Below the pieces are notes generated by a model that made no database searches, was not told the origin of the DNA, and saw only the letters and a program-made list of their open reading frames with translations. DNA of 33,150 nucleotides from an uncultured Gemmatimonadota bacterium (lineage in GTDB: Bacteria > Gemmatimonadota > Gemmatimonadetes > Longimicrobiales > Longimicrobiaceae): the NCBI GenBank assembly GCA_902805735.1, contig CADCTW010000231.1:1-33150 (forward strand). Direction: 5' to 3'. Shown in pieces: positions 1,550-4,561 of the stretch; within the stretch, counting starts at the first letter, position 1; every line of letters starts with the position of its first letter. Made by a program: the position numbers and the translations under genes.

Positions 1550-2721
1550 GGAGTCCTCCCGCGAGTGAAGCGCACTGTCAGCCGCTCCACCTGCCGCCCC
1601 GCCGCCAGCTCGCTCGTCACCGGGCCCACGATCTCCGCGGCCCCGATCTCGGGAACCTTTTCCAGCGGCACCAGCACCGCGGCGGCGCGCGGCGCCAGCG
1701 CAACGATGCTCCCCCCGGCGCTGTCCGCGCGCACCGAGACCAGGGCGCTCCCCTCCGGCAGGGCGCGGGCGAGGTCGGCCAGCGCCAGCAGCGGGGAGCG
1801 GCGCAGCGAGTCGAACGCCGCCACCTCCCGGAGCGCGGCGGTCACGCGCTGAAGCTCGCGCTCGGCGTCCGCGGCGGCGCGGCGCTTTCCCTGGATGGTG
1901 GCCAGGCGGGCCGCGGCCGCGTCTTCGGCCTGCATGGCGCGCCAGGCGGGGGCGACCGCGGCGCCGGACAGGGCCAGGACCGCCGCCGTACCCGCCAGCG
2001 CCAGGCGCCAGGGCGGCACATCCTCGCGGCGCCTTCCGCCCTCGCCGCGGCGCACGGCAAGCGGCTCGGCGGCAGGCAGCAGCGCGGCGCCGTACGCGTC
2101 CGCGAAGCGCCAGGCGTGCTCGCCCAGCACCGCCAGCGCGGCGACCGGTCGCGCCTCTCCGTCGGTGGACGCCACCCGGCGCACCCCCGTCAGCGCCCCT
2201 CCCGCGATCTCAACCTCGGCCGCGGCGGCTCCATCGGCCCACACGTGGCGCCCGTCCTCCAGGGCGCGGGCCAGGGCGACGACGGAGGGCACGAAGGCGT
2301 CCACGGCCAGCCCGGCGGCGCGGCATCCGGCCTCCGCCGCGCGGGCGGCGGGCTCGTCCAGGGCGGCGGCCCACACGGTCCCGGGCTCTTCGACGCGCAC
2401 ACCCGTGGTGAGAAGGGGATGTCCGTTGCGGAGGAAGAACTTCGAAGATCCTTCCCGGATGAGCTGCGCGAGCACGCGGCGGTCGTCCAGCGGCGGGAGC
2501 CCGGTCAGGCGGCGCGTCTGCGCGCGCGAGGGGCCCAGCGCGACGGTGACGCGCGGCCGGAGGAAGCGGCGCACCGGAACGGACGCCAGTATCTCGCCCA
2601 CGGCGTCGTCCAGCCCCTCGCCGGGGCCGATCTCCGCCTCCGTCGCGGCCACCACGCGCCCGCCGCGCACGGCCACCGCGCGGATGCGGTCGCTTCCCAC
2701 CGCGATGCCGATGCGCATCAC
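1546..2721 (-). CDS. gspL: Type II secretion protein GspL-like (PilM/PilN-like fusion)
   Basis: The product is 391 residues. The start is either GTG 2721-2719, sharing GTGA with the gspK stop, or the adjacent ATG 2718-2716. Residues 1 to about 210 look like an actin-fold cytoplasmic domain: IGIAVGSDRIRAVAV at the start, then VTVALGPSRAQ. A membrane helix (about residues 235-258) and a coiled coil rich in Ala, Glu and Arg follow. The C-terminal ferredoxin-like domain begins near SPLLALADLARALPEG. This is the GspL layout, equal to PilM plus PilN in one chain. In the family the cytoplasmic part recruits GspE and the periplasmic part pairs with GspM. The order L then M supports this. Confidence 0.82.
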   Translation of the reverse strand: MMRIGIAVGSDRIRAVAVRGGRVVAATEAEIGPGEGLDDAVGEILASVPVRRFLRPRVTVALGPSRAQTRRLTGLPPLDDRRVLAQLIREGSSKFFLRNGHPLLTTGVRVEEPGTVWAAALDEPAARAAEAGCRAAGLAVDAFVPSVVALARALEDGRHVWADGAAAAEVEIAGGALTGVRRVASTDGEARPVAALAVLGEHAWRFADAYGAALLPAAEPLAVRRGEGGRRREDVPPWRLALAGTAAVLALSGAAVAPAWRAMQAEDAAAARLATIQGKRRAAADAERELQRVTAALREVAAFDSLRRSPLLALADLARALPEGSALVSVRADSAGGSIVALAPRAAAVLVPLEKVPEIGAAEIVGPVTSELAAGRQVERLTVRFTRGRTP

Positions 2722-4031
2722 TCCGTCCAGCTGCGGCGGCGGACCACGGCCGCGCGCTCGCCGGCGCGCACCAGGCGCACCTCCAGCGCGGCGGCCACCG
2801 CCGGCGTCCCCACCCGGGCGCGGGCGGTCACCACCCAGGCGTCCGGAGCGTCGGTGGTGCGCGCCGCCAGCTCGGACGCGCCACGCTCCAGCGCGGCGCG
2901 CGCCGCACCGGAGAGCGACTGGCCCAGCGTCATCACCTCGGGCACGGCCTCGCCGCGCAGCCGCAGCTCGGCGATGCGGGCGAGCACCTGCGGAGCCAGC
3001 CCCGGCAGCGACGCCAGCACCGGCAGCGGCGCGTGCCCCAGCGGGATTCGCGCGCCCTCCACGTCCAGCAGGGTATCCAGCCCCGGGAAGCGGTCGAAGC
3101 CGCGCACACGCCGCACCTCCGCGCGGGCGGCGAGGGGCGCGTCGCGCGGCGGGGCGAGCCCGGCGCGAAGGTACGCGTCCGCCTCCGCGCCGCTGGGGCG
3201 CGGCTCAGTGTCGGGGTCGCGCCAGTCCAGCAGCGCATCGGTCAGCGAGTCCGCGGTCGCGGGGGCAATCTCCATGGCGGCGAAGAAGCGGTGAAGGGTT
3301 TCGGCGTCAGCCGTGTTCACGTCCAGCGCGGCGCCGGCGGCCCGCACCTCGATGTCGCACGCGGCCGTGAGCGGCGAATCGGCCACGGTGCGGGGGATGC
3401 GGTTCCAGCTCTGCCCGGAAGGGCCTTCGACCCGGGAGCCGCGGAGCGCGGCCGAGATGGCGGCGCGTGCGCGCTCGGCGCACCCCTCGGCGCGCCACGC
3501 GGCCTCGGTGAGCTCCGCCCGGTTGCGGGCGGCGGCCACCGACTCGCGCGCGGCGAGCTGCGCCATCATCGCCAGCGCCGCCAAGGCCACCAGCACCCAG
3601 AGCACCGCCAGCAGGGCGAACCCCTCACGCCCCGCCCTGCCGGCTCCCTTGGGCTCGGTACCGAGCCCCGGATCGACGGCCCTCGCCGAGCGGAACCGCG
3701 GCGCGGAGACGAGCTTCGGGACCGCTCCCCCAGGAGCGAATGAATTCGCCGCTGGGACGACGCGAAGACCGCCTGCGCGGTCTGTCCCTTCCACCAGAGG
3801 CGCACTGTACAGTGCCCGCAGGGGCACTTCGCGTCTTTCCAGCGGCGGATTCATTCGCTCCTGGTGCGCCGCCGATCCACCTCCGGTGCTCCCGGTCCCT
3901 CTACGGTTCCGCGGATCGGCGGGCCCCGAGCGGAAGCGTGGCAGCGCGGAGAGAAGCTTCCGCACCTTTGCTCCGCGTCTCCCCATCGCCGCGTGGTGCC
4001 CTTCCGGCCGAAGCACGCCGCACGGTGTCAT
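2718..4031 (-). CDS. gspK: Type II secretion minor pseudopilin GspK with an abnormal N-terminal extension
   Basis: The prepilin site is GREG followed by FALLAVLWVLVALAALAMM; the cleavage Gly codon is at 3623-3621. As usual for GspK there is no Glu at position 5. The mature part (about 300 residues) carries LDVNTADAETL and LDWRDPDTEP, as expected for this helix-hairpin-helix-containing pseudopilin that caps the pseudopilus tip. The start overlapping gspJ (ATG 4031-4029, ATGA) lies 136 codons before the cleavage Gly, whereas pseudopilin leaders normally have about 5-25 residues. The extra stretch (roughly 3651-3968) is a palindrome-rich repeat that stays open in this frame. Other in-frame ATGs are at about 3986 and 3854, the latter inside the element. 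The true start is therefore unsure: either a very long leader is made, or translation starts inside the element. Confidence 0.8.
   Translation of the reverse strand: MTPCGVLRPEGHHAAMGRRGAKVRKLLSALPRFRSGPADPRNRRGTGSTGGGSAAHQERMNPPLERREVPLRALYSAPLVEGTDRAGGLRVVPAANSFAPGGAVPKLVSAPRFRSARAVDPGLGTEPKGAGRAGREGFALLAVLWVLVALAALAMMAQLAARESVAAARNRAELTEAAWRAEGCAERARAAISAALRGSRVEGPSGQSWNRIPRTVADSPLTAACDIEVRAAGAALDVNTADAETLHRFFAAMEIAPATADSLTDALLDWRDPDTEPRPSGAEADAYLRAGLAPPRDAPLAARAEVRRVRGFDRFPGLDTLLDVEGARIPLGHAPLPVLASLPGLAPQVLARIAELRLRGEAVPEVMTLGQSLSGAARAALERGASELAARTTDAPDAWVVTARARVGTPAVAAALEVRLVRAGERAAVVRRRSWTE
3651..3968. repeat. Composite palindromic element inside the 5' part of gspK
   Basis: The parts, in order, are as follows. 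There is a perfect 18-bp palindrome GGGCTCGGTACCGAGCCC at 3651-3668. A direct repeat of about 54 bp has copies at 3670-3723 and 3914-3967 and is also visible in protein as KLVSAPRFRS against KLLSALPRFRS. A long inverted repeat lies between them, with arms 3731-3766 and 3828-3863 (33 of 36 positions pair). Three small hairpins sit between the arms: GACCGC/GCGGTC, the perfect palindrome GCACTGTACAGTGC, and GTGCCC/GGGCAC. The right flank adds GCGGAAGC/GCTTCCGC. Line 3781-3840 is 63% G+C, lower than the surrounding gsp genes. No transposase is present. It resembles non-autonomous palindromic elements that insert within genes without breaking the frame. Confidence 0.75.
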
Positions 4032-4561
4032 CCGCGCTCCCCCAGGCGCAGGATGACGGTGTCGCCATCCATCACCACCCCGATCGCCACCGGCGGGGCC
4101 ACCGACGAGCTCCACTCCCGCTGCCACGTCCCCCCGCTGGCGGGCTCCCGCAGGTAGAGGAGGTGCCCATCTGCCAAGCCGCGGCGCAGCGCCATCACCT
4201 CGCCCCCCTCTGCCTGCAGCGCGAGGACGTGGGCGCCGCCCGCCCGCAGAATGCCCAGCGAGATGGAGCACCGCTCCTGCCAACCGGCCGGCACGTCGCA
4301 CCACGTCGCGAAACGCACCCCTTGCGGCGTCCCCACGAACTCGCTCCCGGACCGCGGCTGCTCCGCCCGCCCCACCAGGGCCCGCAGGAGACGTTCGGCG
4401 TTGGCTTCGCGGTCCACCTCGGCCGCCGTGCCGGCGATCTGCTCCGCGGCATCCCCCACCTGCACGAGGAGCGCGCGGGCGCCCAGCAGCAGGAGGCCGG
4501 AGATGGCCAGCGCCACCATCACCTCCAGAAGCGTGAAGCCGCCGCGCTCAGCGGAGCGCAC
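4028..4561 (-). CDS. gspJ: Type II secretion minor pseudopilin GspJ
   Basis: The 177-residue protein starts at GTG 4561-4559, 14 bp inside the end of gspI. This gives a leader of 8 residues, RSAERGG before FTLLEVMVALAISGLLLLGA, with the prepilin Gly and Glu at position 5 of the mature form. The rest is a pseudopilin globular domain with ANAERLLRALVGR near the helix end and the pattern VRFATWCDVPAGWQERCS, in which two Cys may pair. In the family it joins GspI, GspK and GspH in the tip complex. Extending the frame upstream only reads gspI in another phase, so the short start is preferred. Its stop overlaps the nominal gspK start (ATGA). Confidence 0.85.
   Translation of the reverse strand: MRSAERGGFTLLEVMVALAISGLLLLGARALLVQVGDAAEQIAGTAAEVDREANAERLLRALVGRAEQPRSGSEFVGTPQGVRFATWCDVPAGWQERCSISLGILRAGGAHVLALQAEGGEVMALRRGLADGHLLYLREPASGGTWQREWSSSVAPPVAIGVVMDGDTVILRLGERG

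Follow-up and report, generated by a model that had tools for sequence, protein, structure and literature searches.

The gspK gene of an uncultured Gemmatimonadota bacterium (GenBank assembly GCA_902805735.1, contig CADCTW010000231.1, positions 1 to 33,150, the whole stretch being referred to here as the window) encodes a pseudopilin of a type II secretion system (T2SS) and carries 136 codons between the start codon that it shares with gspJ and the glycine at the end of its prepilin leader. This raises two questions: what the additional DNA is, and where translation of gspK now begins. We consider it probable, though by no means certain, that a miniature palindromic element lies in the start of gspK, that the coupled start codon has been kept, and that the leader is discarded whole. 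Specifically, a non-autonomous inverted doublet with two-hairpin ends would have entered the gap between the end of gspJ and the gspK cleavage site. The element and extra local DNA, partly duplicated around it, would together have lengthened the leader from ~10-23 to 136 residues.

The gspK frame extends from the coupled ATG (4029-4031) to its stop on the minus strand (2718..4031). It is identified by a Gly-Phe prepilin site, a GspK domain (Pfam T2SSK_1st, 6.1e-13) and its position between gspJ and gspL, the latter assigned from position alone, with no match from Pfam or NCBIfam. The NCBIfam GspK model matched the gspK product at 8.4e-10, under the model's cut-off. The upstream gspJ, an open reading frame with a prepilin motif, runs on the minus strand from the GTG nearest its own glycine, seven residues before it, to its stop (4028..4561); the gspJ stop and the gspK ATG overlap as ATGA, so that the gspK start is coupled at 4031. 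The prepilin glycine (3621-3623) is followed by the phenylalanine that forms the mature GspK N-terminus, and the distance of 136 codons from the coupled ATG to the glycine at 3623, reported in the earlier note, was confirmed. The intervening leader DNA (3624..4031, minus strand) has a GC content of 0.71, compared to 0.78 for the gspK body, 0.735 for the window and 0.65 for the core of the element. The in-frame starts nearest the glycine are GTG 3794, GTG 3827 and ATG 3854, which leave 57, 68 and 77 residues, respectively, the last as previously stated; further ATG, GTG or TTG starts lie at 3965, 3986 and 4016. Counted from the nearest start, the residues before the glycine number 5 in gspH, 6 in gspI, 7 in gspJ and 10 in gspG, the operon's other pseudopilin genes. 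The gspK leader is thus an outlier whichever ATG, GTG or TTG start serves (at least 57 residues).

Orthologues bear out the expectation that leaders are short and that relatives lack the element. A protein search covered 41 genomes, 13 of which gave a match to GspK, and an orthologous gene was accepted in six (the source genome, G009, G019, G005, G007 and G015); gspK is truncated at contig ends in G005 and G015, and gspJ adjoins gspK in G015. Counted with the glycine, the leaders comprise 9-12 residues in G009, 11 in G015, 23 in G007, and 16 or 22 in Centralia_MAG_343, a Gemmatimonadetes metagenome-assembled genome (locus L128). The G019 leader comprises 52 residues from an outer ATG or 15-28 from inner starts and lacks the element, which would show that some extra length is tolerated without any palindrome. 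The element is absent from all five orthologues with readable starts (G009, G019, G007, G015 and L128). A comparison of the window's leader DNA with 15 orthologue and paralogue loci returned one match only, of 20 nt, in the distant L042. The ATGA overlap of gspJ and gspK is retained in G007 and G015. A scan of genome contigs for gspK returned four loci, namely the orthologues L128 and L129 (apparently the G019 locus) and the weak L130 and L131. The source genome also holds a second GspK-like gene (L045, G000:C171) with 33% identity and a possible leader of just six residues.

The core of the inserted DNA is an inverted doublet of 135 bp (3730..3864), the arms of which (3730-3785 and 3809-3864; 56 nt each) are 84% complementary. 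Each arm is a half-unit in which a linker joins hairpin 1 (CCAGgaGCGAATGAATTCGCcgCTGG) to hairpin 2 (e.g., AGTCCCC-TGC-GGGGACT). The half-unit that comes first in the sense of gspK (3809..3864, minus strand) is of a CCC type with an AGTGCCC/GGGCACT stem, and its hairpins 1 and 2 lie at 3839..3864 and 3811..3828 (both minus strand). The second (3730..3785, plus strand) is of a CGC type with an AGACCGC/GCGGTCT stem and hairpins at 3730..3755 and 3766..3783 (both plus strand). Hairpins 1 and 2 both form in the predicted single-stranded DNA fold of the gspK copy. The first hairpin 1 contains the in-frame ATG at 3852..3854 (minus strand) and an AGGAG that precedes it, such that the element itself carries an alternative start 77 residues before the glycine.

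The core belongs to a family that is dispersed in its own genome, a draft of 5.79 Mb in 254 contigs (86% complete, 5% contamination). A BLAST search of this genome gave at least 107 matches, both strands counted (40 of 141 candidates scored), and the stretches that were fetched hold at least 47 inverted doublets, 45 of which are 127-138 bp long. Hairpin 2 covaries across the family: among 75 distinct halves, three of its pairs exchange bases in concert (TA in 58, AT in 13 and GC in 2; CG in 62 and GC in 12; GC in 38 and CG in 34) and the fourth is invariant, a tally of sequences rather than of evolutionary events. The alignment omits eight of 46 doublets (seven extra array copies and one fused) and one duplicate half. 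The four predicted pairs of hairpin 1 are nearly invariant and hence uninformative. In a search of 41 genomes, element-like DNA was found in the source genome, in all nine other genomes of the genus, in four of 11 other members of the bacterial family and in none of 20 genomes outside it. Scanned against Rfam at gathering cut-offs, the window gave no family.

One CCC-type and one CGC-type half occur in 45 of 46 doublets, and the doublets of this genome therefore have distinct left and right ends. The 5' stem arms match between halves at 203 of 306 positions and pairing within stems holds at 627 of 634, a figure biased by a finder that picks the best stem. Because the two ends differ and each stem pairs with itself, the design points to recognition of single-stranded hairpins rather than of one large cruciform. 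GTAG or GTGG stands two nucleotides before hairpin 1 in 44 of 90 half-units (two more have no recognizable foot), with GTGG the commonest tetranucleotide in the first half and GTAG in the second. The gspK copy has GTCG and GTCT, neither of which fits GT[AG]G.

The same design flanks genes for Y1 transposases. The source genome encodes two (L051 and L052), each between inverted repeats of hairpin 1, linker and hairpin 2; the inverted repeat at L052 scores 109, compared to no more than 36 in 200 shuffles, a control run on this single locus. We located 21 of 27 Y1 loci, the other six having been missed by the motif script and standing outside this count, and 20 of the 21 have an inverted repeat, with a score of 77-118 at 16 loci and of 42-60 at four; the remaining locus, which comes from another family of the order, has none. 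The ends nearest those of the gspK element belong to Y1 genes of G001 (L091) and G007 (L089). Both Y1 proteins of the source genome exceed the cut-off of NF033573 (IS200/IS605); against the REP-transposase model NF047646, one scores 24.8 with a cut-off of 80 and the other is unlisted. The motif Y---Q, which marks class 1 in the scheme of PMC6006769, is present at 22 of the 27 loci, and the remaining five fail the motif pattern. From NF033573 and this motif, the two proteins look like class 1 enzymes. These observations are consistent with a scenario in which a Y1 enzyme acting in trans placed the element in gspK. Across the Y1 loci (L051, L052 and L083-L107), the flanking two-hairpin repeats fall into several subfamilies.

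Where it was examined, the family lies almost wholly outside genes, with gspK as an exception. None of 46 doublets with enough flanking sequence (of 47) has coding-like open flanks on both sides; the gspK site counts as one-sided, its upstream side scoring as non-coding. We found 97 half-units in 1.6 Mb of the sister genome G009, grouped into 90 clusters. Coding segments make up 78-79% of this sequence; 89 of the clusters lie outside them, and the sole cluster within adjoins a Y1 gene. The clusters recovered there were single or same-strand units only (four ++ and three --), with no inverted pairs. Coding calls were made without a gene finder, from a codon log-odds model trained on the gsp genes of the window, including the gspK body, and in G009 on 386 long open reading frames. 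A stricter scan for fusions gave no candidates among the 90 clusters of G009, and whether it would catch gspK was not checked. Even in gspK, the place of insertion is nearly intergenic, namely between the gspJ stop and the cleavage site.

That the gspK frame runs through the insert without a stop, as the earlier note had emphasized, is correct and unremarkable: a 136-codon stretch of such composition was open in 18% of 4000 Markov-1 simulations. We therefore discarded the open frame as evidence of selection. This bears on the proposal that the insert is a coding palindrome of the kind known from Rickettsia, selected for translation inside proteins. Its in-frame position is what such a proposal would cite, together with the finding that, over the 47 doublets, 158 of 282 strand-frames are open. 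Yet no copy among 46 has coding-like open flanks on both sides, 16 of 47 doublets have a length divisible by three (the chance level), and differences between the elements beside a gene for a GH43 lipoprotein in G005 and G006 mostly change the residue, as judged by eye. We regard this explanation as scarcely credible. The resemblance to the Rickettsia elements that had been suggested is not supported beyond the outcome, as the present family is almost wholly extragenic where examined and tied to Y1 genes.

The element does not account for all of the additional DNA. If the ancestral leader had 11-23 residues, ~340-380 bp were gained, of which the core represents 135 bp; ~205-245 bp of further leader DNA have no recognized origin. 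The core is flanked by imperfect direct repeats, with the upstream copy (in the sense of gspK) at 3917..3966 and the downstream copy at 3677..3723, which align with a gapped score of 67, whereas the highest among 500 mononucleotide shuffles was 45. A separate comparison of these repeats with shuffles gave z = 10.9. The downstream flank also contains a perfect 18-bp palindrome, GGGCTCGGTACCGAGCCC, at 3651..3668. The predicted RNA fold of 3640-4030 has a z of -6.2, and none of 100 shuffles was equally stable. The description of this DNA as a dense nest of palindromes and repeats of lowered GC content thus holds, with the qualification that only the 135-bp core belongs to a repeat family. The upstream flank (3866-3990) was considered as a family member and rejected, since a genome search that scored 40 of 49 candidates gave no other copy at E 0.001. 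The downstream flank, searched only within a whole-insert query, gave no second match.

These observations bear on whether the locus is an assembly artifact, in which a repeat joined two unrelated ends. The draft state, incompleteness and contamination of the genome and the many copies of the element would permit such an error. However, gspJ and gspK overlap as expected, the gspK body continues in the same frame, the upstream flank is single copy, and the whole-insert search gave no second match to the downstream flank. An artifact is consequently very improbable.

Elements derived from IS200/IS605 have subterminal hairpins, make no target duplication, and insert 3' of a short target. The hairpins are present here, and a median direct-repeat z of 0.35 in the flanks of 46 doublets speaks against a long duplication, which we rejected as a trait of the family. 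The nine highest direct-repeat scores comprise eight at arrays or at L119, where an extra half-unit stands beside the doublet, and the ninth is gspK. Doublets form tandem arrays at L127 (G000:C66), L026-L028 (G000:C39) and L125 (G000:C198), with units of ~230-340 bp including the spacer. Outside these arrays, 15 of 35 doublets have a tandem repeat within 100 bp, compared to four of 173 control places at the same loci. The direct repeats at gspK may accordingly reflect a habit of local duplication that other doublets share. The unit repeated at L002 and L007 is similar to the end of the element itself.

Which start codon serves gspK is a separate question. We favor the coupled start, such that translation would still begin at the ATG coupled to gspJ. 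The resulting leader would be arginine-rich and hydrophilic, would stay in the cytoplasm, and would be removed whole by the prepilin peptidase, leaving the mature GspK unchanged. The leader has 24 Lys and Arg against 10 Asp and Glu, and its best 19-residue hydropathy is 0.84 compared to 2.73 for the prepilin helix; a hydrophilic and basic leader fits a cytoplasmic location. The insertion would have been tolerated because the leader is thrown away and because the insert happened to keep the frame. A GGGGGAG lies five nucleotides upstream of the coupled ATG. In a predicted fold of ~1 kb of the mRNA, which we used to estimate the accessibility of starts, the unpaired probability is 0.39 at the coupled ATG, 0.35 at GTG 3827 and 0.00 at both ATG 3854 and GTG 3794.

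The main rival is that gspK no longer uses the coupled start, that the insert has become a new intergenic spacer, and that translation begins within the element at ATG 3854, GTG 3827 or GTG 3794, 57-77 residues before the glycine. We judge this unlikely, while giving it more weight than any other alternative for gspK. It can draw on the AGGAG before ATG 3854, on an absence of codon bias across the whole leader, on the extragenic position of the family elsewhere, on the openness of GTG 3827, which is about that of the coupled ATG, and on the GH43 gene in the source genome, which lacks a start between the element and its signal peptide and may therefore begin in the element. It is opposed by the intact coupled ATG, by the complete pairing of ATG 3854 in the predicted mRNA with an AGGAG just 3 nt away, and by the lack of a clear ribosome-binding site at either GTG. 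Both branches of the original choice, a huge leader or a start inside the element, still stand, with ATG 3854 apparently a poor candidate.

Several observations weigh against retention of the coupled start or against the account of the insertion as a whole. Conservation of the Shine-Dalgarno sequence is confounded because the same nucleotides are gspJ coding sequence. The coupled ATG is hardly more open than GTG 3827, and the sequences preceding the coupled ATG and ATG 3854 are equally closed (0.22 and 0.21 unpaired). In PMC3733652, most repetitive extragenic palindromes (REPs) placed in N-terminal coding regions are considered possibly extragenic, with the starts misannotated. No Y1 gene with the exact end sequence of the gspK element was found in this 86%-complete genome. 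In G005, the closest genome by identity (70% over residues 140-310), the contig ends within gspK, so an empty site is unreadable there; a gspJ search in G005 gave only a weak match, elsewhere. The three segments of the leader all score as non-coding-like (-0.27, -0.16 and -0.24) compared to 0.72 for the gspK body, in which the lowest 35-codon window scores 0.00. In other gsp genes, 55-codon windows (n = 268) have a 5th percentile of 0.23 and reach a minimum of -0.63, so a low score is no proof by itself. The low score fits a recent insert and, equally, an untranslated stretch. Judged by its codons, the leader has probably not long been shaped as coding sequence, whether it is translated or not.

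A third possibility is that the insertion crippled gspK, which is becoming a pseudogene. The insert is large and strongly folded, and T2SS pseudopilins are not known to have leaders of this length. The gspK body is nevertheless open and strongly coding (0.72), it is 45-53% identical to two orthologues across its length, and the neighboring gsp frames are open. Decay of gspK is thus improbable, less so than an assembly error and well behind a start inside the element.

A second gene that meets the family is found at L018 (421-1636), where the GH43 lipoprotein gene (Pfam 2.4e-56) is immediately preceded by an element of this family. No start codon stands between the element and the signal peptide, and three in-frame starts lie inside the element, the nearest of which is an ATG in the loop of hairpin 2. 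The orthologues in G005 and G006 (85% identity) carry a half-unit of the L051 type, i.e., of another subfamily, at the same place (scores of 86 and 91), with a weaker second half (43-44) and a modest self-complementarity (scores of 70 and 47, with shuffled maxima of 58 and 40, respectively). In G009, the orthologue is free of any element and has a plain signal peptide (MMRIGALLL). A GTG stands at the edge of the signal peptide in G005 and G006, and the element thus need not be translated there; the mostly residue-changing differences between these two elements give no sign of selection on a peptide. The gene was read in sister species at L139, L140 and L141. Starts supplied by the element as a general habit were considered and rejected: among 12 inspected sites (chosen for a gene-like frame beside the element, with the eight one-sided sites less L124), six have their own start outside it, gspK and L018 do not, and four have no clear gene. 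From gspK and GH43, we tentatively suggest, as a possibility that we would sooner doubt than assert, that the Y1-associated doublets of this genus repeatedly rebuild the N-termini of exported proteins, since cleaved leaders and the fronts of signal peptides tolerate them. In gspK this would have given a 136-residue leader; the GH43 gene would have been entered at one and the same place by one subfamily in this genome and by another in two sister species, with the element providing both a new start and the first part of the signal peptide.

Should translation begin at the coupled ATG, the gspK leader would be exceptionally long for a T2SS pseudopilin compared to known leaders, and the locus would amount to a natural test of the length of cytoplasmic leader that the prepilin peptidase and the assembly machine accept. 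It would also indicate that a mobile palindrome that is otherwise extragenic can survive inside genes in the discarded parts of exported proteins. Among the papers listed in searches of the open-access literature, we found no report of a comparable insert in a prepilin leader.

The closest parallels are found among REP-related systems. Like the REPINs mobilized by RAYTs (PMC3116915), the family of the gspK element consists of inverted palindromic doublets with hairpins, high copy number, an extragenic distribution and compensatory changes, and related units stand beside Y1 genes. In REPs, the hairpin is preceded on its 5' side, within 0-2 nt, by a GT[AG]G tetranucleotide (PMC6006769), which is present in 44 of the 90 half-units noted above and in neither half of the gspK copy. 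Unlike in REPINs, each half here has two hairpins, and in place of a cognate REP-class enzyme (TnpA_REP, class 2) the source genome has Y1 proteins of the IS200 class, neither of them proven cognate. TIRtrons and TIR dimers with their TIRYT transposases (PMC3733652) are similar in that the long inverted repeats on either side of Y1 genes also occur elsewhere in dispersed form, as singles, dimers and clusters, and the same source lists REPs inside genes, N-termini included. Many TIRs carry a GGGGWSAS motif. In PMC6006769, all 26 TIRYTs belong to class 2 (20 to subclass 2.1 and six to 2.2 and 2.5), whereas the Y1 enzymes here look class 1-like (from NF033573 and Y---Q). The class 3 TnpA(Y1) of Solibacter usitatus, with ~600 copies of an atypical structure, is presented there as a possible intermediate between insertion sequence and REPtron. 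It likewise combines an enzyme like those of insertion sequences with high-copy atypical structures, but has a Y----Q motif and a CnGA foot, compared to Y---Q at most loci here. Rickettsia palindromic elements (PMC10969869, PMC3733652) are similar as ~150-bp palindromic repeats open in frame within a host protein gene, and differ in being often intragenic. In the present family, IS200-class Y1 enzymes seem to go together with REP-like doublets of high copy number, features that the classification in PMC6006769 mostly assigns to separate classes. Collectively, these comparisons place the gspK element with REPINs and TIR dimers: it is of a known kind, in a variant form that has two-hairpin ends and an IS200-class Y1, at an unusual site.

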